DNA of 64,000 bases from Micractinium sp. NFX-FRZ (Eukaryota > Chlorophyta > Trebouxiophyceae > Chlorellales > Chlorellaceae): contig JAPTJF010000109.1 in assembly GCA_029339195.1 (NCBI GenBank), positions 1-64,000 of the forward strand, in the 5' to 3' direction. Below the pieces are notes generated by a model. It searched no databases. It worked only from the letters and a program-made list of their open reading frames with translations, and was not told the origin of the DNA. The translations under genes and the position numbers were made by a program. How positions within the stretch are numbered: position 1 is the stretch's first letter; the number at the start of each line of letters is the position of its first letter. Positions 41,939-61,448 of this stretch are shown piece by piece.

Positions 41939-44206
41939 ATGCTAGCCAGAAGGCTCAGGCCCGAGCGCCTGCTGCCAGTGTTGGCAGGCGGCACTGGCGG
42001 CCTGGGCTGCAGCCGTGGGTTTGCAGCAGATGGCTCGTCCAAGGCAAGCATGGCGCATTCTAGCCGTCCTGCTCGCATCCTGGGCGCCTGAGGCTCACCC
42101 GGGCGGCCTATTATGGAAGTCAAGCCGCGTCAGGCCCCGCCCAGGTCGCACGCAGTCCTGACGCAGTCCGACATAGCCTGCTGCTTCGTTGCCTTCATCC
42201 GAGGCTCCAATGGGCGCTCCCTTTGCGTAGGGTGTGTTGGGCGCGGCTGCCGAGGCGGTGCAAGGCGCGCTGCGCCAGGCGGCGGAGACTGTGACGGGAG
42301 GCACAGGTGGGTGCGGCAGGCACAGGTGGGTGCGGCGGTCCTAGGTGCCGGAAGGATCGCGCTGTCAAGCTTGCCCCTGCTGGTGCAGTGCATCCCAGCT
42401 GCAGGCGCCTGCCAGCCGGAGAGCTGGCAGCAGATGGGCCATGAGCACCGGCATTCAAAGGAGTCTTGGGCAGCAGGCGAGGCGGTGGGCCTGATCATGC
42501 AGGCGGGCGCCCTAGGCCCTGCCTGACAGCCAATGACCCCTGCCAGCTCTGCGTGCCCATGCTTGTGCCTTTGGGTGCAGGTGGGCTGCCTACAGAGGAC
42601 CTGTCTTCCAAGCTGCAGGACGACGAATACCCAGACAGGTGCACCTCTCGGCGGGCAGGCAGGGCTCGGGCGGGGCGGGCGGCCGGCCAGCATGGGGCGT
42701 CCAGCGGCTTGGAAGACATGGCTGTGAGGGGTCAGGTGACCTGGGGGCAGGCACATGGAGTGCTCCAGCGCTGGAGGTGTGAGCTGGGAAGGCAGTTCAC
42801 TGCCGGCTGCTTTTCATAGCACTTGTGTCCCCGTGCGCCATGCGCCCTGCCCGCCACCTCCCATCCCCCCACCTTGCCCGATCCTTCCCTTCCAATTCGA
42901 TGCCACTGATGCTCCCATCCCAGCCCCAGGCCTGTCCACCCACACTTGCCTGCCCCCGCGCCCTCTGCAGCGGCGAGTGGGTGGAGCCTGGGTCAAAGGA
43001 GGCTCAGCCGGCGGGGGCCTACCTCTTCACAGGTGTGAGACTACAATGAGGGGAGGGTGGCAGGCAGGCAGGCAGCTGCGGGCATACCTTGTGCTAGCTG
43101 CTAGGTGCCCACCGCTTTTTCTCTCCTAGCTGAGCTGGCGGGCTTAGGTGGACGCCACCTAAGCCCGCCACTCAGTGGGCACAAGCCTGAGCGGGACGGC
43201 TGCATGCCGTGCCATGCCACTGAATTCAGCCTTGCTTGTGCTCTTTTCCGGTGTGTGTATGCATGCACTGGCCCCGGCCAGCCCCCCCGGAGGGTGAGTG
43301 GATTGCACTGCCATGCTCATGGGACGGTATGCATGTGCCCCGTGCAGAGGATGAGATGAGGCATGTGGGGGAGGGCAACGAGGGCGGGCGCAGCCTGGAG
43401 GCACGCGCCCTGCAGTCCGACCAGCGCTACGCCGACGAATACCCCGACAGGTGCGCTGTGCCTGCTGTGCCGTGCTGGGCCATAGTGTGCCTGCTGGGCC
43501 GTGCTGGGCCTTGCTGGGCCTGCAGTCCGACCAGCGCCCCGCTGACGAGTCCCCTGACATTCGGCCCCCTTCTGCCCGCCCAGCTGCACATGGGTGCCTG
43601 CTCGTCTGCCTGCCAAGCCAGCCTGCCAGCCACAACCCGACGCTCCGCTCCCCTCGACCTCTGTGCCTGCATTCGGCCCCGCCTCCACCGCAGTGGCGAG
43701 TGGGTTGTGGTGCCGACGCCTGGCGGCACCGGAATCGCCAAATGGGTCCGCTGGAAGTGAGGAGGCGCCGCTGTGCATGCTGCTTCCCATCCCCTTTTGA
43801 CTTGCTCCCTCCCTCCTCGCCGGGGCTGTCGGCCCAGTGCTGCGACCCCTGCTGGCCCTGCTTGCAATCGCTGGCACGGCCCATGCTTTCCTGCGCACAC
43901 CGATTGCTGCAGCCAGCCCCGCGCCTCACTGTGGTACCGTTTGGACTGTCAGTCCCTGGCTCATACGTTGCATGCCGACTGGGCAGCCCCCATCGCTGGG
44001 GACCTTCATGTCCACTGCCCATCCCTCCCCATTCACATGGTGCATGCTGACTGGGCAGCACCCTTGCTGAGCCCTGTCCCTGCCCCTGCCATGGCTCATG
44101 GGCCCAACTGTGTCCACCGCTGCCGTTCCCCTCGGGCCTGTGCAGGCAGGAGGCCGACGAGTCGATGCATGGCGGGGAGCCCGAGGCCGGCATTGTGATC
44201 GACTGA
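41939..44206 (+). CDS. Small mitochondrial-type protein with duplicated EYPDRSGEW module
   Basis: Seven exons, 41939-42043, 42231-42306, 42581-42638, 42971-43032, 43348-43450, 43694-43756 and 44146-44206, encode 175 residues and close in frame. The N terminus MLARRLRPERLLPV...SRGFAADGSSK looks like a mitochondrial presequence with a typical RGFA processing site. A helix-forming stretch, GAAAEAVQGALRQAAETV, follows. The module DDEYPDRSGEWVEPG is then repeated as ADEYPDRSGEWVVVPTPGG. An intron interrupts both copies at the same base of the arginine/serine junction, so an exon pair was duplicated. The protein ends in an acidic tail, EADESMHGGEPEAGIVID. Hydrophilic composition is LEA-like, but I do not recognise the family. 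The first intron appears to use a GC donor (AAG|GCAAGC). An alternative 3' end would stop at 43758-43760 without the last splice. Confidence 0.7.
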
Positions 44207-46864: not shown

Positions 46865-49800
46865 ATGGGTGAGCTGCCGTATCGGACCTTCGTGTCTCTC
46901 CTGCCACATCATCTGTATGCACACCACCAGAATTACATGCACGGCAGGGCAACGTCTTTACTCTCCAGCCTCTGCCCCCCTCTGGGTGCTGCAGGGGCAG
47001 GCACCGCGGGCGGGGATGTGTCCTGGCAACCGCTCCAGGTCCGGATTGAAGACCTCGAGCTGCGGGCATCGCTCAGAGACTGTGGGGTGACGCAGGCAAG
47101 CTGGGGTGGGGGACAAGCAACAGGTGCTAGAAACAGGCTGGGGGCTCTGCACCCTTCCAGGGTACGTGCATGGAAACTGAATTCACGAACTGGCACATAA
47201 GCTTGCAGCCCGGGCACAGCCCCCACTGCCAACAGAGGAGTGAGTGGGAGCTACTAGTGTCGTACAGTGCCTTGCAATCAGGGCTCTGCACGACAGCACA
47301 TGCGTGCAAACGCTCGCTAACGGATGACCCCTTGAATGTCCCTTGTACGACCCCTCTTGTGTGCCCCTTGCCTGCAGACGTACGAGGCCCTGTGGCAGGG
47401 GCACACGCGCGTGGTGGTAGAGATGCTGGCAGGGGGGGTTGGCACCACAACAGGCCCGGACCTAGCTGTGGCAGAGCCCCCGCCCAGCTTCACTGCCGCC
47501 GTGCACGAGGTGGGCCAAGGTTTCGTCCTCTGCAGCGGGGGTATCCGTGTGGGAAGGGAGACTGCAGAGGGGTGGGAGGCCCATTCATGAGTCCTGCTGG
47601 CTCCATGGCCTTGAATGTAACAGTGATGATGAATGATGACGACCATTTGGGGCAAACCCTAGTGCAGAGCGCACGCAGGATACCCTGCATGGTTGCCGGC
47701 GTCCAAGCACATGCCTTTCAGCTGCCTCCCCCGCCTTATGCCGCTGCCCCTACCATGCTGCTGCAGATTGCGTCCCTGCGGCACCCCAACCTGTGCCTCT
47801 TCCTGGGATACTGCTCATCCCCGCCCGCCATCATGACCGGTGCGCACGCCGCCCCCACCAGGAGCGGGAGAAGAGAATAGTCTCTGTTGGGCGCAGGTTC
47901 AGGAAACCAGCGGAAGGGTGGACCCCCACGGCAGGGGCACCTCCTCTGGCAACCCACCCCAGCCAGGCCTCAACAGCGGGTGCCAAGCGCCGATCTTTGC
48001 CATGCCTGACGCAGCTCAGTAGCAAGCTGTGCAATCTCATGATGGGCTGGCCAGCAGCTGCAAACCAACCCAGACAGTGTGCAGACGTATCACGGGCCGT
48101 GCCCCCCACCTGTGCGTGCAGACTTTTGTGAGGAGCGGGGCACGCTGTCCGATGTGCTGCACCGGGCCAGGAGCGACGGCGCAGAGGGGGCGGAGCTGAG
48201 CTGGCGGCGCCGCCTGGGCATGGTGAGCGAGCGCGCTGCCCTGCGCCTGCATGCTTGCCATGGGGTATGAACCACATGATTCGTCTCCGTCTTGTAGAGC
48301 ATTCACGTGCACGCGAACCCACTCCCGAGGAACCCTGTAGGCTAGCTACCTGCTCCAGGCCTGCCTCCCTCATCTGCAAAACGATTCCAGTCACCTTGAG
48401 AATGCTTCTGCGCCCCATGGCGCTTGTGTGCAGGCACTGGACGCAGCCAGGGGCATCCTGTACTTGCACAGCCAGGCGCCGCCTGTGCTGTGCCACACCC
48501 TGAGCTCCCGCAGCCTCCTGGTCGACGCGGCCTGGAGGGTCAAGGCACGTACCCCGCCAGGGATCCGCCCAGATCCGCCTGCACCCGTGCTGCTCTGCCC
48601 TCCTGCTGCCCAGCACGCATGCCTACCCCGCCTGCCCTGCCTGCCCCCAGGTGGCCAGGGCCTGCGCAAGCATTACGTATTCCCCCCTAATGCATTCCCC
48701 ACTTGCCTGCAGGTCGGCAGCTGCCTGTGCAGCAGGCTGGCGGGGCAGCGAGGGGCGGAGCTTATAGAGCTGTCTGACCCACGCTGGCAGGTGGGTGCAG
48801 CTGCGGTGGTGGTCTGCCACGCCCCAAAGCAGCCGCTGCCCTCCGGGCCGTGTACCACACTGCAGCAGGGGCGGCGTCGCGCTAAACTTGCTGGCATGTT
48901 TGGCTCGCCGTCTTCTTTCTGTGTCGGAATGTGCGACACAGACCGCTCTTTGGGAAGCGCCCTGCCCTTCTGCAACGGGTGCTGCAGCCCTGCCCTGTGA
49001 AGTCCACCCAGGGGTGCCTGCCCATCTCCCCCAAGAAACCCACGAACCTCTTTTCCCCCGCCCTCACCCCCCGCCCCCCTTGCTGCCTGTCCTAGGCACC
49101 CGAGGTGGCCCAACAGGGCGCCTCCTCCGCCGCAGGCGACGTCTTTGGTTTGGGGATGGTGCTGTACGAGGTGAGGCCTGGCGCAGCAGGCTCAGCAGCA
49201 GTCCGACCGTCCCTGCTACGTGTCTCACGACCGCGACGATGCACCCTGCTATCCTCCCACAAAATCGACCCTCTCACTTTCACTCACTGCCGGGTCTGCT
49301 GGCTGCAGCTGCTGACGTGGCGTTCCCCCTGGGTAGAGGAGCACCCTGACATAGCGAGGAGTTTGCTGGCCGCAGGCCGCCGTCCCGCCGTGCCGGCCAC
49401 ACCAGACCTGCCCGGCGCCGAGACGCCGCAGGTGGGCGGGCGGGCATCGCAGGTTTCGAAGAGCCGTCTGGCAGGGGTGTTGGCAGCAGGAGCAAGCATT
49501 TGTCACATTCGGTGTAAGCTGCGGGGCGCACACTTGGGATTGGCGCGGTCACTGCTTGCTTGTTTGTGTTTACAGTCCGTTTCTCCGCAATGAAACTTGC
49601 GATACAGAGCACGTTGGAGGTGCCAGCGGGACGCCGGGATGCAGGGAGGCTTTCTTAAGAGCCACGTGACCCTCCCCATCCATTCATCCTGTCCTCCTGT
49701 CCCCGCATGCATCTGGCTCCCCCTTGCCCTGCCCCGGGCTTACACAGCCGCCAGCCCCCACCAACCCTCCCCCTGCCCTCCCCAGTTTGCTGGGCTGGAC

Positions 49801-50687
49801 GCCTACGTGGCGTTGATGCAACGCTGCTGGGAGCAGGACCCGGCAGACAGGCCCGCCATCAGCGACGTGTTCTCAGATCTCAGGTGGGACATCCTCCCAG
49901 CTGTCCATTCCCAGCATGAGCTTAACTCAAGATTCAAGGCGCACAGACTGCGCGTGATCCCGGGATGGGGGTGGGCCGCCGCTTCCACGTGGCAATAATT
50001 TACCTGCACCCAGTTGCGTGTCCCTCTGTATGGGCGTACCGCGCCACCCAATGCATGCCCAGACTGGTCACACCTTCCCATGTCACGCTGTGCTGTGCTG
50101 TGCCGTGCTGTGATCAACTGTGCTGTCCCCTCCCGACGCCCGCTCTGTGCCCGCCGCTGCTGCAGTGCGCTGCTCGCCAGCACCGCCGCTGAGCAGCCGC
50201 CCTCGCCGCCGTCCCCGCCGACCCTCAAAGCCTGCATGGTTTGTAAGACAGTGGCCGAGCTGCTGGCGCTGCTGCCCTGCGCCCACCGCGTGGCCTGCTC
50301 TGACTGCGCCGCACACCTGTCGAGCGCTGCCCAGCGGTGCCCGGTCTGCAGCAACCAGGTGCGTGCAGGGGGTATGGTAGCGGACTGGTGCGTACTGGTG
50401 CCTTTGGCTCAACTTCCTGCTGGCTTTTTCCGAGAACGCCCCCACGCCCTCGGGCTGTAATGTTCTTCTGCCTCTGCGTGCAAGGGAGCGCGTGCAGGGG
50501 AGCGCACGCATGCGTTGTGCAGGGGGCGGTGCACGCTGTGCCTGCTGTGCATGCGCCTGGCCGCCGATGCCTGCGAAACTCCTGACAGCAAAGCACGCCC
50601 CGCCTCACTGGGCGCCTGTCTCTTGCTGAGCACGCGTGTTTCCCAATGGTGCAGGTGTCTGGTGCCATTCGAATCTTTGACTGCTGA
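46865..50687 (+). CDS. Pseudokinase-RING finger protein
   Basis: Exons 46865-47095 (5' end uncertain), 47378-47509, 47767-47839, 48122-48222, 48434-48544, 48713-48790, 49096-49170, 49309-49431, 49786-49883, 50166-50358 and 50655-50687 give 415 residues in frame. The fold follows TKL-type kinases: LRHPNLCLFLGY, SWRRRLGMALDAARGILYLH, WRVKV, APEV, GDVFGLGMVLYELLTWRSPW and MQRCWEQDPADRP. Catalytic residues are gone. The VAxK lysine is E (VVVEML), the C-helix Glu is Ala, HRDLKxxN reads CHTLSSRS, and DFG reads SCL. A C3HC4 RING follows (CMVCKTV...PCAHRVACSDC...CPVC), with tail VSGAIRIFDC. RING fingers usually recruit E2 ubiquitin enzymes, so a ligase guided by a pseudokinase is inferred. Two introns appear GC-AG. 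The first exon may really begin at 46995 behind an acceptor, with upstream exons unresolved. Confidence 0.8.
47886..47950. repeat. Dispersed imperfect repeat, copy A
   Basis: About 65 bases (GGAAACCAGCGGAAGGGTGG core, then ACCCCCACGGCAGGGGC) in an intron of the pseudokinase gene match 61449-61513 at roughly 80% by eye. Confidence 0.6.
49554..49608. repeat. 55-base dispersed repeat, copy 2
   Basis: Exact match to 45865-45919, here inside intron 8 of the plus-strand pseudokinase-RING gene. Confidence 0.9.
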
Positions 50688-50760: not shown

Positions 50761-51282
50761 ACAATGAATGCTGCGGAGCTCGTGCACTCTGAAACTCAAA
50801 CTCGGAGCGCACCCTGCGGCGTAGACACCACGCAGTGTCATCAGCAAGGGCTGCCGGGCATGCGGAACGCCCCACTGTGGCACCGGCGCCAGCACCAGCA
50901 CCCACCGCCCCCTTACCCATAGCAGCAGGCGACACACGGGGCTTCCACCACAGATCAGCAGTAGTACCTCTGCCTGCCGCCCTCGTGATATTGTCTATCT
51001 GTGTATAAGTTTGACCTTCGAGGCCCATGCCTGGCACTTTCACGCATACACAGGCACCAAGACCTACATAAGGGGTGACGCCTTCCCACCTGCAGGAAGG
51101 CACCAGAGCCATCCCACCCTTGCATGCTGCTGCCTTCATTCGATTCGCACTGCAATCTTTGCCACTGCGTTCCATCCCATTCCATGCGCACGTCCTCACG
51201 CCGCAGCTGAAGCCCATCTTCAAGAACTACCACATATGGTGGTGCCTCCTTTGAATTGCCACCCACATTTACACACCCACAT

Positions 51283-51287
51283 TTACA
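51283..51287 (-). terminator. Probable poly(A) signal of the SBP-ankyrin-pseudokinase-RING gene
   Basis: TTACA on plus (TGTAA on minus). A second copy lies 14 bases further on at 51269-51273. Either gives a 3' UTR of about 540 bases. Confidence 0.45.
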
Positions 51288-51820: not shown

Positions 51821-54800
51821 TTAGCAGTCGTAAATCTTGATGCTGGCCGTCGCCTGCAGCCACATAGCAGCGTGAAGTTGGGGGAGCCGCGAGATGAAAC
51901 ACGCTGCGCTTGGGAGGCAGCGCGGCAGAGCGCCAGCACCTGCCTGCCTTGTGGGCCGCCGCTTCCTGTGTGCGCCAGCAGGCGCTGCGCGGGAGGCCAC
52001 TTAAAAATGCAGAAGCTGGCGCGGCAGGCTGCAGAGTCTGCAGAGCCCAGGCACGGCAGAGGCTAGCCAGCCATAGGTCAGAAGCCGGCGCGCCTCATTG
52101 CTGCCCTCGCCCCAGCTTCCCAGCCTGGCCCGCACTGAGGCAAAGCATGGCACCCACCTTGGCCCGGCAGATGGGGCACAGCTTGGCCCCAGCCAGCAGA
52201 TCCTCAGCGCACGCCTCGCACACAGCGCGGTGGGCGCAGGGCAGCAGCGCCACCAGGGCAGGAGCCTCCTCCCAGCAGATGCAGCACTCCCGCCGCCCCC
52301 GCACGGACGTGGACGCGGGCACCGACGGCGCGGGCGGGGGCGCGGGCGCGGGCGGGGCCGGTGGCGGATCTGTGGCGGCGCTGTACAGCAGAGACCTGCG
52401 GGGGGAGGGAGGCGAGGAGAGGCGCACGGCAGGGCGCAGTTGTGTGCTGCACAGGTTTTAGTTCTGTGACCACAGGCCACGCACAAAGGCCGTAGCTGGC
52501 GTGCTGCATGGAGCGGAGGTCTGCAGAGGCACGGTTGCGTTGGCAGCTGCCCTCTGGCGTGGCGCGGGGCCGCCCCGAAGAACGTGCCCCGCACTCGCAG
52601 AGGGTCATAACACACAGCGGTGTGGGGAGAGGGGCAGGCACCTGAGTTCGGGCACGATTGACTGGAAGGTGGGCCTGGCTGCCGGGTCCTGGTCCCAGCA
52701 GCGCTGCATCAGCGCCAAGTAGGCGTCCAGCCCAGCAAACTGGGGAGGGGGGGGACGTGGGGGAGGGCAAGCAGGGGAGGGAAGGGTAAGTACGGTGCAT
52801 GTGGCAAGGGCAGTGGTTGAAGGGATGATGACCCATGGAGCCGCCTGGGTCAGGGCCCGCCTGGGGAAGTGTGCCCCGCCCTGCCTGCCCCATTCAGAAG
52901 TGCCGCAGTAAAGCGCAACAGTGTGGCAGCAGGCGCCACAGCCAAAAACCAGTATCTGCATACCCCTGTCCCCCCCACTGTCCAACCCAAAAGAAGAGGA
53001 GTCGACCCATCACTGGCTGGCACTCACCAGCGGCGTGTCGGCGCCCGGCAGCTCACGCAGTGCGGGCACCTCGGGGCGTCCGCCCGACATGGCAGCGCCG
53101 GCCACCCGCCACAGATGCTGCCCCTCCCAAGGCGTGGCCCATGTCAGCAGCTGCAGGCATTCACACAGTTGCACGGTGTGGTGAGTTGCAAGGTTGAATG
53201 CTCGAGGTGCACAGCAGTGGTTGGTTGTTGGAATGCCCTCCAAGGGGGTGGGCCCACACCGGCGCCTGCAGGGCATTGCTACACAAAACCCAGATGCGCT
53301 GCGGGCCTTGCAGGGTCAGCCTGCCGCAGGCGCAGATGAATGACTACGCTGCTGCCATGGTGCAGCACTGTGGGTGCTGGCAACCTGTGCTATGTGTCGT
53401 GAAATGCGTGCTGTGGTCATGCAATCCATGCAGCTGTCAAAACTCGCAATGCAGCCACGCCAGTGACACACACAAAAACACCACAGCCAGCGGCAGCGGC
53501 ACTGACCGCGTAGAGCACCATGGCAAAGGCGTAGACGTCGCCGGCGGGGGAGAGGGCGTGGTCTGACAGGACTTCCGGCGCCTGCCCGGGGGCGGGGGAA
53601 GCAGGGGAAGGGGGTGGGCATTCAGCTGGAGTTGGTGCGTGCAAAGCAACGAGCAGCCGGTGCAGCCGGGGGCCGGTGAGGGCGGGTGAAACAGGCGGGC
53701 AAGCAGGCAGGCAGGGTGGGCAGGCGAATGGGCGGGCAGGCAGGCAGGGTGGGCAGGCGAATGGGCAGGCAGGCAGGCAGGGTGGGCAGGCGGCCAGTGA
53801 GGGTGGGCAAAACAGGCAGGCAGGCAGGCAGGCAAGGCCGCATTGCGCTGGGTGTCACACAATGGAGCGGGAGGCGGGCTTGGCTGGCCCACCTGCCAGC
53901 GTGGGTTGGGGCTGAGCCTGTCTGAGGCAGGCAGCATGCCCAGCAGCCGGCTGTTCAGGCTGCTCTCAACCTGCGCAGGCGAGCGGGTGGGCACGGGGCG
54001 AGACAGGTGAGCTGCCAAAATGTGAATTTGTACATTGAGAGGGAGGCGTGGCGCAGGAACAACAAGGGCGTCGGCCAGCCAAGGCATGGGACCCTGCTGA
54101 AGGGGCCGCGCGGAGAGAGGTTGCGGCGCCAAGGGCTGACTTGGCAGGCAGGCAGGCAGGCAGGCAGGAGTAAGGGAAAGTCAACATCGACAGACTGTCG
54201 CGAACAAAGCTGTCCCAAGTTTGATTCAAACTTTCAGGCAGCAGGCGGGCGGGCAGACAGGAAGGCAAAGGGGGGGGGGAGGCAGGCGTGTGGGCAGGAC
54301 TGGAGGGCAGCGCCGGGCACCTTCACGCGCCACGCGCTGTCCACCAGCAGTGAGGAGGTGGAGAGGTCTCGATACACGATGGGAGGCGACTGGCTGTGCA
54401 GGTACAGCAGGCCCCGGGCTGCGTCTGCTGCCTGCAGGAGCGGGGGGTCAGGTACGCCACAGACTGCCCGTCAGGTTCCAGTCACACTGGTTGGCATCCA
54501 CAAACTGCGCTACAGGTGCCCCTACGATGAGCAGGGGGGTGCTGCTTTGGCGCGCAGCCCAGGCAGGCGCTGCAGCGTGGTTGGGCCGTCACACCAGGCT
54601 TGCAGCAGGCAACACAGGTTGCAGTGCGCAGGATGCGCTAGCCAGCCTGCGCATGTGGCATGTGGCAAAGCATGTGTCGAGTGCAGGGCTCGAGGGGGAG
54701 GCGCGCGCTCACCATGTCGAGGCGCCGCCGCCAGCTCAGCGCCACGCCGTCTGGGCCGCCGCCCTGCGCCCGGCGCAGCACATCCGCCAGCGTGCCCCGC

Positions 54801-57800
54801 TCCTCACAGAATTCTGCGCAGGTGGCGCCCGCCGCGGGTGGTGGAGGCGCGTCAGCCAGGCGGCAGCCGGCATCCATTCATTTGTTGAGCAAGCAATTCA
54901 AGCAATCGATCCATCACTCAAAGCAGGCTGGCTGGAGGCGCACCTGTGACCAGAGCGGGCGGCGAGGCACAGAAGCCCAGGAAGAGCCCCAGGTTTGGGT
55001 GGCGCATGGAGGCAATCTGCAAGGGAACGAAACAGCCAGAGGAGGAAATTGAATAAGAGGAAGCTGTACACACCAACCCCAAGGCTGATCTGGCGCATCA
55101 GGGCAGTGTGTGACACCAAATGCACCAAAGCAAACAGACCTGGGTGCTGAACCGAGGTGGCACGTAGCATGCACGGCGCAGCCGGTGCACATTGCCACGC
55201 ACGGCGGGTGTGCGCAGGGTGTTGCGGGGCAGAAGGGTCGCTAGAGGCGCCGCTCTCCGGGCACTGCAGGCCTCCCTGCCACGCCTACACCCCCGCCTAT
55301 ACCCCCCACCGCTCCAGCCAGCCTGCCGCCCACCCCGCCACCCCCCGCACCTCTTGCACCGCCGCCTCTATGTGTGAGCGTGAGGCCAGGCTGGAGGCGC
55401 CAGAGTCAGACAGAGTCTCCACAACCACGGAGGTGTGCCCCTGCCACACGCCCTTCACACTCTGCAGCGCAGGCGGAGCACACACACACATGCACAGTTG
55501 AGCTGCTGCAAGGGCTGCGAGGGACGAGGCTTTCAAGTCTGCTCAAGCTTGCAATCGCTGCTGAGGTGCGGGCCCACCAAACGACCTGCAGGCTGTGCAG
55601 CACATCACACCATGGCCACACGGCAGCAGCTTGCAATCGCTGCTGAGGTGCGGGCCCGCCAAACGACCTGCAGGCTGTGCAGCACATCACACCATGGCCA
55701 CACGGCAGCAGCAGCGCAGCATGGGCACAGCATGCACGGGGCATGAGAGTGCATGCACCCGCCTTGACTTTGTTTGCGGCGGCACAAGGGGAGCCGCACG
55801 GACTTTGCAACAGGCAAGTACAGCCCGTCCCACGCTCGACACTGCTTTTGTGCACAGGGACGGCTGCCAGCACTTGCCCTCCCCTGCTGGCCACTTGCCT
55901 TGGTGGTGGCGGTATCCCGCAGCGCCGCCCCCAATGCAATCTCCGAAAACAGGATCTCCGCCGGGTGCACCATGCTGCCTGCACGGTCAGGAAAGAGGGA
56001 AGAGGCATTGAGGGAGGGGGCGCAGTGGTGCAGGGCACCGGCGCACCGCAACGCAGCCGACGGCGCTGCAGCATGGCATGGTGCAGCACAGCGCAGCGCA
56101 GCGCAGCATAGCACAGCACAGCGCAGGCACAGCACAGCGGGCTTCACCTGCGTGCCGCACTTCCTCTGGAGCTGGCACAGCTGCCGTCTGCTGGCTGCGG
56201 GCAGGTGCTGGAGTGCTGCCGGTGCCGGCCCCTGCCCCAGCTGGCAGCAGCAGGCTCTTCATCAAAGCCTCCACTTCTAGCTCGCCCTCTTCAGCAACTG
56301 CACTGCCACCCTCTGCATGTCCACTGCCCACGCTGTCCACGTCTAGATGCTGCTGTATGCATCCAGCAGACGCAACATGGGTGAGGGCGACCCGTGGTTG
56401 CAGCTGCTGCTGCTGATGATGATGATGTTCCTGCTGCTGCTGCACTGCTGTACCCGCTGCCAGTGCCTGCTGCTGCTGCACTGCTGCTGCGGCTGCCACT
56501 GCCTGCTGCCATGCATCGGCTGCTGCCGGTGCCTGCTGCTGCTGCTGCCATGCATCGGCTGCCGCCGGCGCCGGCGCCTGCTGTTGCTGCTGCTGCTGCT
56601 GCTCTGCACCAGCTGCTGGCAAGACATGCTGCGCGTCTCGAGCAACCGCGCCCGCCTGCCCTGCTGGTTGAAGAAGTGGTGCTGCCTGCTGCGCTGATTG
56701 AAGTGCTGCTGACGACGCCTCAGGTTGCTCCACATGCCCTGCCCTTGCATGCGCCTGCTGCTCTGTACCACCTGCTGCAACCACCAACTTCGCAGCATGA
56801 CCAGACTCCTCTGGCGCCACCGGCCGCTGCTGCTGCTGCTGCTCTGCTGCATAGGCATCAGCCGCTGGCGGCGTCGGCTGGTCGCCAGGCTGGTCTGGCG
56901 CTGCGGCCGCGGCTGCCTGCTGCCGCCGCTCCTTCTGCCGCTGCTTCTTGGCTGCTTTGGCGGCAGCCCTCTCCTGCTGCTGCTGCCTCAGCAGCTCCTC
57001 TTCTTCCAGAAGCTGGGTGGCAGCTGCCTCAGCTGCCTGAACCTCTTCAACTGTGGGATCAGGGTGCGCCGGGAGCGGCTGCTTCGAGCGCTGCCTCCTG
57101 CCTGCACGCACGGCAAGGAGATGGGCCAGGGGTGGGCGCGCAGCCAGGGGGTGAGAAGCTGTCACACAGGCAGGCGGGACGTGTGCACGCCCCCACAGTA
57201 CAAGGCCCAGCAGCACGGCCAGCAGCACAGCACGCTTGGGAAGGCACGCAGCTGCCCCCGGTTTGGGTGGCAAGCGCACCTGCAGAGCTGACGTCGGGGC
57301 TGCGCGCCCGGGCCAGCGAGACCTCTGGAGCAGACGCCACACCGCTGGTGCGCAGCAGGCTGCTGGCCAGCTTGGCATCCGGGGTGGCGCCCAGCGGCGA
57401 TGCAGCCGCCAGCAGGGCGTCCGCAAAAGCGCGGTGCCCGCTGGCCGTGGCCAGCTGCAGCGCGGTCTCCCCGCCCGCGGTGCGCGCAGCGCGGTTGGCG
57501 CCGGCGCGCAGCAGCGCCAGACCGCAGGCCGCATGGCCGTGCGCCGCCGCCACATGCAGCGCCGTCTGCCCGCTGCCGTTCGCCGCTTCCAGCTCTGCCC
57601 CCGCCGCCACCAGCACGTCCAGGCATGCCTGGTGGCCCTTCTGCACCGCCAGGTGCAGCGGGGTGCGGCCGCCGCGCCGCACCGGGGACACCGCCGCGCC
57701 GGCCGCCAGCAGCGTGCGCACCACGGGCGCGTGCCCGTTGGCCGCTGCCAGGTGCAGCGCTGTGCTGCTGATGCTGTCGGCGACATTCAGATCGGCTCCC

Positions 57801-60126
57801 GCAGCTATCAAGGCCACCACGCATGCCAGCTGTCCCCGGGCGGCCGCCAGCAGCAGGGGTGTGCGGCCATCTCGGTCCAGCGGCGATGTCGACGCGCCGC
57901 CGGCCAGCAGCGCCGCCACGCAGTCAGCATGCCCGCCCCAGGCGGCCAGGTGCAGGGCGGTGGTGCCGCTGCGGTTGGCCAGACCGGGGGAAGCCCCTGC
58001 TGCCAGCAGCACGCCCAGGCAGGCGGTGTGGCCATCGGCGGCGGCGTGATGCACAGCCGTGCTCCCCTGCTGCTCCGCCGCGTCCGGGCTGGCCCCGGCA
58101 GCCAGCAGCAGCTCTGCGCACTCCCTGTGGCTGTTCCAAGCCGCGTGCAGCAGCGCGGTGCGCCCAAAGCTGTCGCGAGCGTCCAGGCTGGCGCCGGCGG
58201 CCACCAGGGCGCGCACACAGCCGACGTGGCCTGCTGCCGCCGCGTGCTGCAGCGCCCGCCCGCCGCGGCTGTCGGTGGCGTCCGGGCTTGCGCCAGCAGC
58301 GAGCAGAGCTTTGATGCGTCCCGTGTGCCCGCCGACGGCCGCCAGGCAGAGCGCGGTGGCGCTGCTTGCGCCGCCGCCGCTGGGTGCCTCCACATCTGCG
58401 CAGCAGCGGAGGGAGGGGAGGAGGGGGCAGGGAGGCCCCATCAGACCAGGAGCGCCCAGAAGGCTGGAATGGAAAACGCCCTCTGGCAGGCAGGTGGGCA
58501 GGCAAAGGGCGGGGCCGGGCAGGAGGGCGGGAAGGCAAAGGGCAGGGCGGGGCAGGCAGGCGGGCAAGCAGGCAGGCGAAGGGCAGAGCAGGGCAGGCAG
58601 GGCGGGCAGGCAGGCAGGCAGGCAGGCAGGCAAAGGGCAGGGCAGGGCAGGGCAGGTGGGCAAGCAAGCAGGATACTTGGGAGCAGCTTGCCTGGTGCAG
58701 CCTTGGGGCGCGTGGCCAGGGGGTGCGGCGGCTGGTCTGCCTGCACAGGGGCAGCAGGGGTGGGACACAAAGGTGGAGACAGCACGATTGCCAGGCGGAC
58801 TGGCACATGCAGGGCGTGCCACAGCGACGGAAGATATACAGAAATACATGCATGTATATGTAGGGGAAAGGTGGGGAAGTGTTCCAGCCAGTGAGGCCTC
58901 CACAGGGGCTGAGCCAACAGAGCCCCCACTCTCAGGGTGCGACCCTTGGGAGGACGGCACTGGGCGCCCCACCAGCAGCAGCAACTCGGGCTGGGGGCGC
59001 AGGCAGGCGCCAACAACAGGCAGTGGCGGCGGCGGCGGCGGCGGGGGGAGAGACGCGCGGCGGCAGCAGACGTGCTCGCGTGCGCTGGCGCCCGGGGCGG
59101 CAGCGCACCTTGCCCAGCGTCGAGCCAGCGCTCGACACCTTGCTGTCTGAACTGCTTGTGCCCACACTGTAGCTGCTGTATGTGCTGCTCATCGATGAAA
59201 CATCAGTGAGGGTGAGCACAGACTGGTGGTCGCTGTGGGCAGTGGCGAGCGAGTGGTGAGTGGGGCCCGCCGCCCCGCCGCCCGCAGCCGCACACCCGCC
59301 GCCAGCACGCCCCTGCAGCCAACAAGCACACAGGGCGGGTGGGTGGTGGGTGGCCAAGCGGCGGCGGCACGCGGGAGTGGCGCAGCGGTGGAATGGCAGC
59401 CCTGTCCTGCATGAAAGGCAGCATCCAGAGTGCAACTTTACCTGGAGATGCGTCAGCTGCCGAGCCTCCTCCCCCTCCTCCTGCTGCTGACCCTGCTGCG
59501 CTGCGTGCTGCTGCCGTACGCACGGCTGCTGCGCCGCCAGCTGGTGCGGCGGCCCTGCTGCAGCAGTACTGGCTGTGGCGGCAGTGCTCCTCCGACATGT
59601 GTGCCTCCCAGCATCAAAATCGTCCACTGGGTGCAGCCCGCTGCACGCTGTGCAATAGCGCTGCCGCCTGCCGCCCGTCAGCACCTCCTGTGCCCCCATG
59701 TGGACGCTGCATATGTGGTGCAGGGGCGTGGGGACGTCCCGCGTGCAGCCGTCCACCTGCAAGAGCAATACACAGTGTTGGCATCAAAACTAGACTGTCC
59801 AAAACAATACCGGATGTGGCCTCGCGCTGGCTGCGCCGCTAGTGCAGTGCACGTGAGGCGGCGGCGGACAGAACCACCCGGCTGACTGCATGGGCTGTGC
59901 ATGCGTCATGGTGCCAGCCTGCCGCACTCGAGGTGCAGTGAGCCTGCCCAGCCCTCACCTGGCACGTCCGCTCCTTGCCGCTGCGGCGGGCCGCCCACAA
60001 CGGACCGCCACTGGCGGCAGCATCTGTAGGGCCGCTGGCACCCAGGGTTGACGCTCGACCGCTTCCGGTGTCTTTGCCAACCACCTGCAAGGTGAGCGAG
60101 CAGGGAACGTTGTGTGCTGGGCGCAC
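51821..60126 (-). CDS. SBP-ankyrin-pseudokinase-RING fusion protein
   Basis: Sixteen minus-strand exons: 60126-59959, 59756-59442, 59312-59114, 58395-57280, 57101-56148, 55978-55899, 55461-55351, 55016-54944, 54813-54713, 54431-54321, 53970-53893, 53581-53507, 53150-53028, 52739-52642, 52395-52158, 51853-51821. They give 1,290 residues, in frame throughout. Order: SBP zinc domain, with all eight ligands (C55, C60, C72, H75, C91, C94, H98, C110); about eleven ankyrin repeats (228-599, TALHLAAxxGHxxxVxxLLAAGA type); a Gln/Ala-rich, partly charged region (600-917); a pseudokinase (918-1200); a C3HC4 RING (CCICWEE...PCAHRAVCEAC...CPIC) and tail ATASIKIYDC. Kinase residues: lysine replaced by E, YRDLSTSS for HRDLKxxN, ESS for DFG. 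SBP plus ankyrin also occurs in plant SPL1/12/14-type factors; the kinase-RING extension is the oddity. The weakest joints are the start codon and the exon 3-4 splice, which needs a GC donor (TGG|GCAAGG). It could be two genes. Confidence 0.7.
53690..53830 (-). repeat. GGCA-rich minisatellite in intron
   Basis: Three to four units of about 32 bases (plus strand GGGCAGGCAGGCAGGGTGGGCAGG core) in an intron of the minus-strand gene. Confidence 0.75.
55546..55710 (-). repeat. 82-base tandem duplication in intron
   Basis: Two copies of an 82-base unit, starting at 55546 and 55628 (AGCTTGCAATCGCTGCTGAG and on), are almost identical; one base differs (CCCACC versus CCCGCC). They lie between the exons ending at 55899 and 55461 of the minus-strand gene, so the duplication looks recent. 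Confidence 0.9.
58490..58680 (-). repeat. GGCAGGC/AAAGGGCAGGGC minisatellite
   Basis: Irregular units of 30-40 bases in the intron between the SBP-side exons and the ankyrin exon. On the coding strand this is a CCTGCC-rich pyrimidine tract, as in most introns of the window. Confidence 0.7.
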
Positions 60127-61448
60127 CGACGGCGCCCGTCATGACGCAGCTCGCCTGACGCTCTAAACGCGCTGTTGCCTGGATGAATCGAACATGCTAC
60201 TCACCCTGGAGAACCAGGACGGCATAGCTCCTCACACCAAGCCGAGGGGTCCTCCGTCCATTTCGCCCGTCCTGAAATAACGCAAAGTGGCACACAAAAC
60301 AAGCAAAGCTGTCTTTAGGAAGTCGAGGCGCCAGGGGGAGCGCAGGCCGGGCAGGTTCAATTTGTTGGGCCAGTTTCAGGCCCAGGCCGCCGCGCATGCG
60401 GAAGCGGCGGGGAATGGGGCTGCAGCTGCACAGTACGGAGCGCAGCATGTGCCGCCTGCTTTCGGTTTTCTCCCTCACATACACGTCTGGAACAAGGTAT
60501 GCCCCCCCAAATGTCACAGGCCAGTGAAGCGCCAAACTTAGCCACCCCTGGGCACCCCGCACTGGCCCTGCTGTACTGCGCCTGTCAGAGTGCAAGCGGT
60601 CCGCTTCTGGTGCCCTCCAAGTCACCAACATGTTGTGTGTACACCCCTGGAGTTCTCCCACATACAGTAAGCATCTGCGTTCAGGGTGGGGGATTATCAT
60701 GCCACAGCAGCACTCCCTGGCAAAGTTGGGGAGGCAGCCGTGGGTCAGCCACCGCTCGAACTCAAGCCCCTCTCAAGCTGCCGGGTGCAGCATCAACATG
60801 TCTCACACAGCAATGCACGGCAACCTGTGTTCTTGTGTCATGCAATTGGCGTGGCATCGTGACGAGAGGGACACATCCTGTGTGCGACACAGGGGCACTA
60901 ACAGGCTGCATCAAGGGACTAGATGCCGACTTTTACGGGTCCGTTGTTGGAGCAAGCAGCCGAGCAAGTGAGGACAGTGAGGAGTTATTTTAAAGGCATG
61001 GGTCTCAGACAGACGGGAGGGCTGACAGACAGTTTGAAAGAAGTGGCGCGACAAACAATCACAGGCAGTGCCCCGCTGCAACAAGGAGCACTGGCAGTCG
61101 GACGGGCCAGAAAGAAGAGTTGTGGAAGAGAGAAGTTGAACCAGAAGAGAAAAGGCAAAGCTGCCATTCTTGGCAGGGATTGGGGTGGGGGCAAGAGGTG
61201 CAATTAGAAATCAAGCGGGGGAAGACATGTGCACGCACGCGCATGGAGGCAGCCATTGAAGGGCCAATCAACCTGCACTTGAACAGCACACTCCTGGTGA
61301 GCAAGGGGCCTTGGAGGGTGCGGCACGAGGGAGAGGCGCTGAGGGAGCCGTGAGGCATCAAGGGCCTATCATGTTGCAGGCACCGCAGTTTCAGCATGCG
61401 TGGGAGAATGCCGTGGGGAGAAAAGCAGCAGCAGAAGAAGAATACGCT

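Follow-up and report, generated by a model that had tools for sequence, protein, structure and literature searches.

The analyzed window, a 64-kb stretch of an assembly of 66 Mb in 838 contigs, carries on its minus strand a predicted gene of 18 exons (60225–51821) encoding a protein of 1301 aa. A single open frame runs through an SBP domain, ankyrin repeats, a Q/A-rich linker, a TKL pseudokinase, a C3HC4 RING, and an aromatic tail, in this order. The sequence-only reading of this DNA had likewise joined all of the domains in one frame, and that part was retained, whereas its 16 exons beginning at 60126 were replaced in the revised model by 18 exons starting at 60225 (MPSWFSR). The Pfam and PDB searches reported below were made with an earlier 1306-aa version of the protein, which differs from the 1301-aa model at exon 5 only, or with parts of it.

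Exon 1 (60205–60225) contains the start codon and encodes MPSWFSR, exon 2 (59959–60084) ends with the first cysteine of the SBP domain (C48), and exon 3 (59442–59756) encodes its remaining part, with ligands C53 to C103, which is matched by Pfam SBP and by the solved structure of SPL4 (1ul4). These are followed by a Ser-rich linker (exon 4, 59109–59312), a 49-nt exon with a GC donor (exon 5, 58692–58740), the ankyrin repeats (exon 6, 57280–58395), and a basic stretch with the Q/A-rich linker, all in open frame (exon 7, 56148–57101). The kinase fold begins in exon 8 (55899–55978), which has its own in-frame ATG at 55973 and a GC donor at the same position as in a paralog in the window. The pseudokinase continues through exons 9–12 (55461–55351, 55016–54944, 54813–54713, and 54431–54321) and exons 13–16 (53970–53893, 53581–53507, 53150–53028, and 52739–52642), spanning 52642–55461 in total. 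The end of the kinase, a Pro-rich spacer, and the C3HC4 RING are encoded by exon 17 (52158–52395), and the C-terminal tail ATASIKIYDC with the stop codon by exon 18 (51821–51853); the window paralog also has a last exon of 33 nt. Downstream of the gene, two TGTAA motifs on the minus strand (51269–51287) are weak evidence for a possible poly(A) signal; no TGTAA was found in the window after the stop codon of the paralog.

Splice sites were scored with weight matrices derived from 41 introns in the pseudokinase–RING parts of four genes, 10 of these introns being from the SBP gene itself, and were ranked among all candidates at the locus (1791 donors and 526 acceptors). The seven introns on the SBP and ankyrin side lie outside this training set. 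From the donor of exon 1 to the acceptor of exon 8, their donors rank 13, 1, 62, 6, 213, 8, and 28, and their acceptors rank 2, 6, 13, 8, 10, 7, and 3. The donor ranked 213 (58677, exon 5) was rejected and replaced by a frame-keeping GC donor 15 nt upstream, which ranks 17. The direct join 59114/58395, initially proposed between the SBP and ankyrin parts, had to be abandoned: its donor ranks 376 of 1791, and a better score is obtained with the donor at 59109, the 49-nt exon (58740–58692), and then the acceptor at 58395. GC-AG introns are common in these genes, with 6 of 34 introns in the models of three relatives (the window paralog and the genes on contigs C266 and C441) and 2 of 17 in the SBP–RING gene. 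The exact extent of exon 7 in the model is uncertain, because every run of the gene finder described below placed extra introns within it.

The SBP domain scores 57.9 bits in Pfam (cut-off 27) and matches SPL4 (1ul4) with an E-value of 4.9e-12. It has two zinc sites (C3H and C2HC), and the eight ligands attributed to it from the start were all counted on the 1301-aa sequence (C48, C53, C65, H68, C84, C87, H91, and C103). The loop of the first finger, between the second and third cysteines, is 11 residues long, as compared with 16 in SPL4. Aligned with SPL4 and SPL5, the domain has the YHRR part deleted and the K replaced, and little of the terminal basic NLS block is left beyond RR. Basic residues of the first finger are named as the likely base readers of SBP domains in a published study, which also reports that most of them are missing from CRR1 of Chlamydomonas reinhardtii and that DNA binding by CRR1 is weaker (PMC10796333). 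Since the first finger lacks the residues thought to read DNA, sequence-specific DNA binding by this SBP domain is doubtful. The reading of the protein as a transcription factor is thus weak, given the shortened first finger, the loss of the basic base-reading residues, and the largely missing NLS block. A basic stretch in exon 7, KKQRQKERR, could serve as a nuclear-import signal.

The domain is also divergent from the other SBP sequences of the genome, recovering as a protein query only itself and one exon on contig C48 (35% identity). In the assembly, 92 SBP exon matches form 64 loci on 41 contigs when grouped at a chosen distance of 1.5 kb. The family is large, with at least three loci on each of contigs C30, C35, C36, C48, C5, and C274. 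Assembly scans scored 150 of 580 ankyrin candidates, giving at least 177 matches, and 112 of 215 kinase candidates; among the matches listed, no other SBP match lies within 10 kb of an ankyrin, kinase, or RING match on the same strand. If the 64 loci were scattered at random over both strands of the 66-Mb assembly, about 0.004 of them would be expected to fall in the 2-kb regions upstream of four genes of this kind.

The ankyrin repeats and the Q-rich linker of the sequence-only reading were both recovered in frame, the former with 201 bits for Pfam Ank_2 over five stretches and the latter as residues 616–930, which include 81 A and 59 Q. The kinase fold matches Pfam PK_Tyr_Ser-Thr with 94.3 bits, and its best relative of solved structure is CTR1 (3ppz, E-value 3.5e-33), which makes it a TKL kinase match. 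In the motifs, the beta-3 Lys is replaced by E970, HRD reads Y1070-R-D1072, the Lys and Asn of the catalytic loop are replaced by S1074 and S1077, and DFG is replaced by S1090-S-L (SSL); APE, DVYxF, and CW-x(6)-RP are retained. Among the residues that characterize active TKL kinases (beta-3 Lys, HRD Asp, catalytic Asn, and DFG Asp), the HRD Asp alone is present. The earlier description of a kinase fold without catalytic residues therefore holds for the beta-3 Lys, the catalytic Asn, and DFG but not for the HRD Asp (D1072). Because the beta-3 Lys, the Lys and Asn of the catalytic loop, and DFG are all replaced, the kinase part is classified by sequence as a pseudokinase. The HRD motif is degenerate in three relatives as well (CHT, RRG, and HGS), although the C266 and C441 genes retain the beta-3 Lys.

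The C3HC4 RING, also as first described, has all eight ligands (C1249, C1252, C1265, H1267, C1271, C1274, C1285, and C1288) and scores 44.2 bits for Pfam zf-C3HC4_3. Its relatives of solved structure are MEX3C (2.3e-6), BIRC3 (7.8e-6), BIRC2, BIRC7, and XIAP, and the XIAP chains align to residues 15–69 of the 71-residue query, reaching the tail. Directly after the last RING cysteine stands R1289, at the position of the linchpin Arg of active RINGs. In IAP RINGs, an aromatic residue of the tail serves dimerization. As the aromatic tail of the predicted protein aligns with that of XIAP, its RING is expected to be active and paired. The C-terminal ending IKIYDC resembles those of the relatives in the genome, including the genes on C266, C441, and C493 (IRIFDC, FRIFNC, FRVYSS, and LVIFDC).

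Four relatives of the gene were modeled in the same assembly. The window paralog (46865–50687, plus strand) is a convergent pseudokinase–RING gene of 12 exons and 373 aa with 48.9% identity; its start is uncertain, because the gene finder replaced the first exon by spurious 5′ ones. No ankyrin match was found on its strand in the window at an E-value of 0.001, and an SBP match was likewise not found for it. The two genes face each other tail to tail across approximately 1.1 kb, an arrangement such as an inverted duplication would leave, with SBP and ankyrin parts in one of them only. Upstream of the paralog, the gene finder described below predicts a further plus-strand gene (41939–44206, seven or eight exons). 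The C266 gene (12476–17499) encodes ankyrin repeats, a pseudokinase, and a RING, starts with MGNCAS, includes a GC donor, and shows 41.1% identity in its kinase–RING part. On C441 (28389–25656), the model covers the pseudokinase–RING part of a gene; the nearest same-strand ankyrin match, among the matches listed, lies about 9 kb upstream. The C493 gene (23067–24491) combines ankyrin repeats with a RING in three exons, starting with MGCKAS and ending with SLVIFDC. Contigs C18, C468, and C596 hold additional ankyrin matches with a RING match nearby on the same strand.

Ten introns of the kinase–RING part of the SBP gene could be compared with those of the relatives by alignment. The same place and phase were found for all ten in the window paralog, nine in the C441 gene, and six in the C266 gene, which on these alignments is more agreement than chance would give. 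By their sequences, the pseudokinase–RING genes form a small family in this genome. Since relatives of the pseudokinase–RING (window and C441), ankyrin–pseudokinase–RING (C266), and ankyrin–RING (C493) types all occur without an SBP domain, the novelty appears to be the SBP front. The whole architecture had previously been seen as one invention, a view that these relatives do not support: the ankyrin, pseudokinase, and RING parts belong to the genome's own family, and the SBP end alone is new.

The preferred reading, which we consider probable, is that a single gene at this locus encodes a RING E3 ubiquitin ligase, approximately 1301 aa long, which belongs to the local ankyrin/pseudokinase/RING family and acquired an SBP domain at the N-terminal end. 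It was examined with a small home-made gene finder, whose codon and splice models come from three related genes only (31 introns, 1535 codons). Eighteen unforced runs with varied costs were made in two batches of nine, one setting being common to both. The whole gene from SBP to RING was predicted as a single gene in 7 of these runs. A cut inside the kinase domain, which is contradicted by homology, was also made in 7 of the 18 (four of nine and three of nine), exon 7 was split, and a 6-nt exon at 53265 was added in several runs; for these reasons the gene finder is a rough tool. A setting with an intron cost of 4 bits (four runs) over-fragmented the exons and was therefore excluded from the evidence. 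In two control runs on the plus strand, the gene upstream of the window paralog was kept separate, and 11 of the 12 exons of the paralog, itself a member of the training set, were recovered.

The junction between the ankyrin and kinase parts is where a boundary between two genes would most plausibly fall, and we regard such an arrangement as unlikely. Under it, the Q-rich exon or the sequence immediately following it would hold the end of an SBP–ankyrin protein, and the pseudokinase–RING part would be a gene of its own, with its start at the ATG at 56262 or 55973. If exon 7 is left unspliced, its frame reaches a stop at 55987; in 8 of the 18 unforced runs, ATG 56262 within exon 7 was taken as the start of a second gene; as little as 7–16 bits are lost when a break is imposed at 56050 or 55985; an in-frame ATG is present in exon 8 itself; and the convergent window paralog is a pseudokinase–RING gene with no ankyrin match found. 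Yet the 56148/55978 join was used in all 18 unforced runs, with an acceptor ranked 3 of 526, and the two genes would have to overlap or lie about 80 nt apart. When genes had to be separated by 200 nt or more, the ankyrin exon stayed in one gene with kinase exon 8 in six of six runs (one whole gene in four, and a cut inside the kinase domain in two). The C266 gene, moreover, is predicted as one gene with ankyrin repeats and pseudokinase–RING, its kinase exon being entered in phase 1 as in the SBP gene; held out of training, it came out as a single gene in three of three settings and lost 12–28 bits in forced splits, although its exon details vary between settings and its last exon was lost in one. 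The ankyrin–RING gene on C493 was likewise kept whole in three of three settings, with forced splits costing 19–26 bits. Finally, no TGTAA occurs on the strand of the gene from 61946 to 51287, which is weak evidence because only about 2.5 would be expected within the gene.

A boundary on the other side of the ankyrin repeats seems very improbable. It would separate a short SBP gene (exons 1–4, stop at 58932) from an ankyrin–pseudokinase–RING gene like that on C266, starting at ATG 58441; the in-frame stop and start both exist, and C266 carries just such an SBP-less gene, with no SBP match on its contig. Against this, all 18 unforced runs spliced SBP through exon 5 to the ankyrin exon, the splice sites involved rank high (donor 59109, rank 6; acceptors 58740 and 58395, ranks 8 and 10), and separating the two parts by force at 58600 or 58560 lowered the score by 27–43 bits, including a charge of 10 bits for the extra gene. 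Since the ankyrin exon shared a gene with kinase exon 8 in 10 of 18 unforced runs, as opposed to 18 of 18 for the SBP–ankyrin join, the latter is the firmer of the two in these models. About as improbable, in our estimate, is a decaying gene in which the degenerate SBP and kinase domains are functionless leftovers. The loss of the SBP basic residues and of kinase motifs fits such decay, as does the lack of a full-length relative in protein searches of limited scope, but the frame stays open for 3.9 kb across 18 exons, every RING ligand is kept together with the tail, and the kinase retains APE, DVYxF, and CW-x(6)-RP.

Outside this genome, protein searches revealed no full-length relative from SBP to RING within the limits set by word matching and candidate numbers, and none of the 30 candidates obtained with the SBP region as query was significant. 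The closest named proteins to the kinase part, among the scored candidates, are from Chlorella and Micractinium. With a kinase–RING query restricted to proteins of 718–2285 aa, 16 matches were obtained from 7989 scored candidates, none of them with a RING among its precomputed domains. A profile of four kinase–RING parts gave 137 matches from 7997 scored candidates; among the best 120 of these 137, a RING is present in the precomputed domains of one protein only (P0020). This uncharacterized protein of 325 aa (source ‘lgn’) is encoded by an uninterrupted ORF on a contig of 1145 bases, and its TKL kinase is followed by a C3HC4_3 RING in the same chain, as in the SBP gene. It differs in its intact HRDLKSPN, catalytic Asn, and DFG, begins inside the N lobe of the kinase, has no ankyrin or SBP match, and carries the tail GSTDCPTG in place of an IYDC-like ending. 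Judging from this sequence, the kinase–RING pairing is not confined to the genome analyzed, and the pseudokinase condition is probably a derived one. A Chlorella ohadii protein of 651 aa (P0017, COHA_001129) has two tandem TKL kinase domains, the first with a catalytic loop that looks degenerate by eye. No relative was found among viral contigs (24 pattern matches) or prokaryote contigs (26). Among the open-licence papers listed in literature searches, no title or abstract start describes the combination of SBP, ankyrin, pseudokinase, and RING; the initial claim that no described protein has this domain order agrees with the results of both the protein and the literature searches, within their limited scope.

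Several known systems share parts of this architecture. In KEEP ON GOING (KEG), the domain order is RING-kinase-ankyrin-HERC2, whereas the order here is SBP-ankyrin-pseudokinase-RING with the RING at the C terminus, and no match to HERC2-like repeats or to any further Pfam domain was found in the predicted protein up to an E-value of 0.1. KEG is described as an E3 ligase with RING, kinase, ankyrin, and HERC2-like repeats that ubiquitinates transcription factors, and its kinase is called catalytic (PMC5385374). The XB3-like ligases (XB3, XBAT, and XBOS) share ankyrin repeats and a C3HC4 RING with the predicted protein, as does the C493 gene. Proteins of this type consist of ankyrin and RING parts, and a survey reports none in Chlamydomonas or Volvox (PMC3596331), although the C493 gene is XB3-like in layout. 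The SBP-to-RING protein was not assigned to this group, since a pseudokinase intervenes between ankyrin repeats and RING and an SBP domain stands in front, both absent from XB3-like ligases as described. Sequence kinship is shared with the CTR1/Raf-like TKL kinases, but here the catalytic motifs are lost and a RING is attached. Plant SPL Group 3 proteins and CRR1 likewise have an SBP domain with all eight ligands, and ankyrin repeats are ascribed to Group 3 in the same study that treats CRR1 (PMC10796333); the predicted protein differs from them in its long ankyrin block, its pseudokinase and RING, and its poverty in basic residues and NLS. By its domains, it can be described as a known kind of E3 carrying a new front domain.

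The protein is most likely an SBP-tethered E3 ligase, as judged from its domain content. The SBP zinc fingers, acting as a tether or a sensor, would keep the ligase in the nucleus, bound to DNA or to a partner. Substrates would be selected and held by the ankyrin repeats, the pseudokinase may work as a non-catalytic switch, gate, or dock, and the RING, paired through its tail, would pass ubiquitin from an E2 to the bound regulator or to the ligase itself. The N termini of the C266 and C493 proteins (MGNCAS and MGCKAS) follow the pattern MGxxxS, a myristoylation-like start, whereas the fusion gene has MPSWFSR and then the SBP domain; exchanging a membrane-anchor-like N terminus for SBP may have moved the ligase from the membrane to the nucleus. 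We tentatively suggest, as a possibility less likely than its converse, that a membrane-anchored ankyrin–pseudokinase–RING ligase was turned into a nuclear, chromatin-tethered, promoter-directed single-chain E3 with the dead kinase as a sensor, to which the zinc fingers may add sensing of copper or zinc. Metal sensing by this SBP domain is possible by analogy with CRR1, for which displacement of zinc by copper in the SBP fingers is proposed in two papers (PMC4158090, PMC6600651).

If this reading is correct, a DNA-binding-type domain and the RING of a ubiquitin ligase occur on the same polypeptide, separated by a pseudokinase, an arrangement that would lend itself naturally to signal-gated turnover of regulators at selected promoters. 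A ready set for comparison is also present in the assembly, with ankyrin and RING, pseudokinase and RING, all three together, and the three with SBP added, in which each step of domain gain could be tested.
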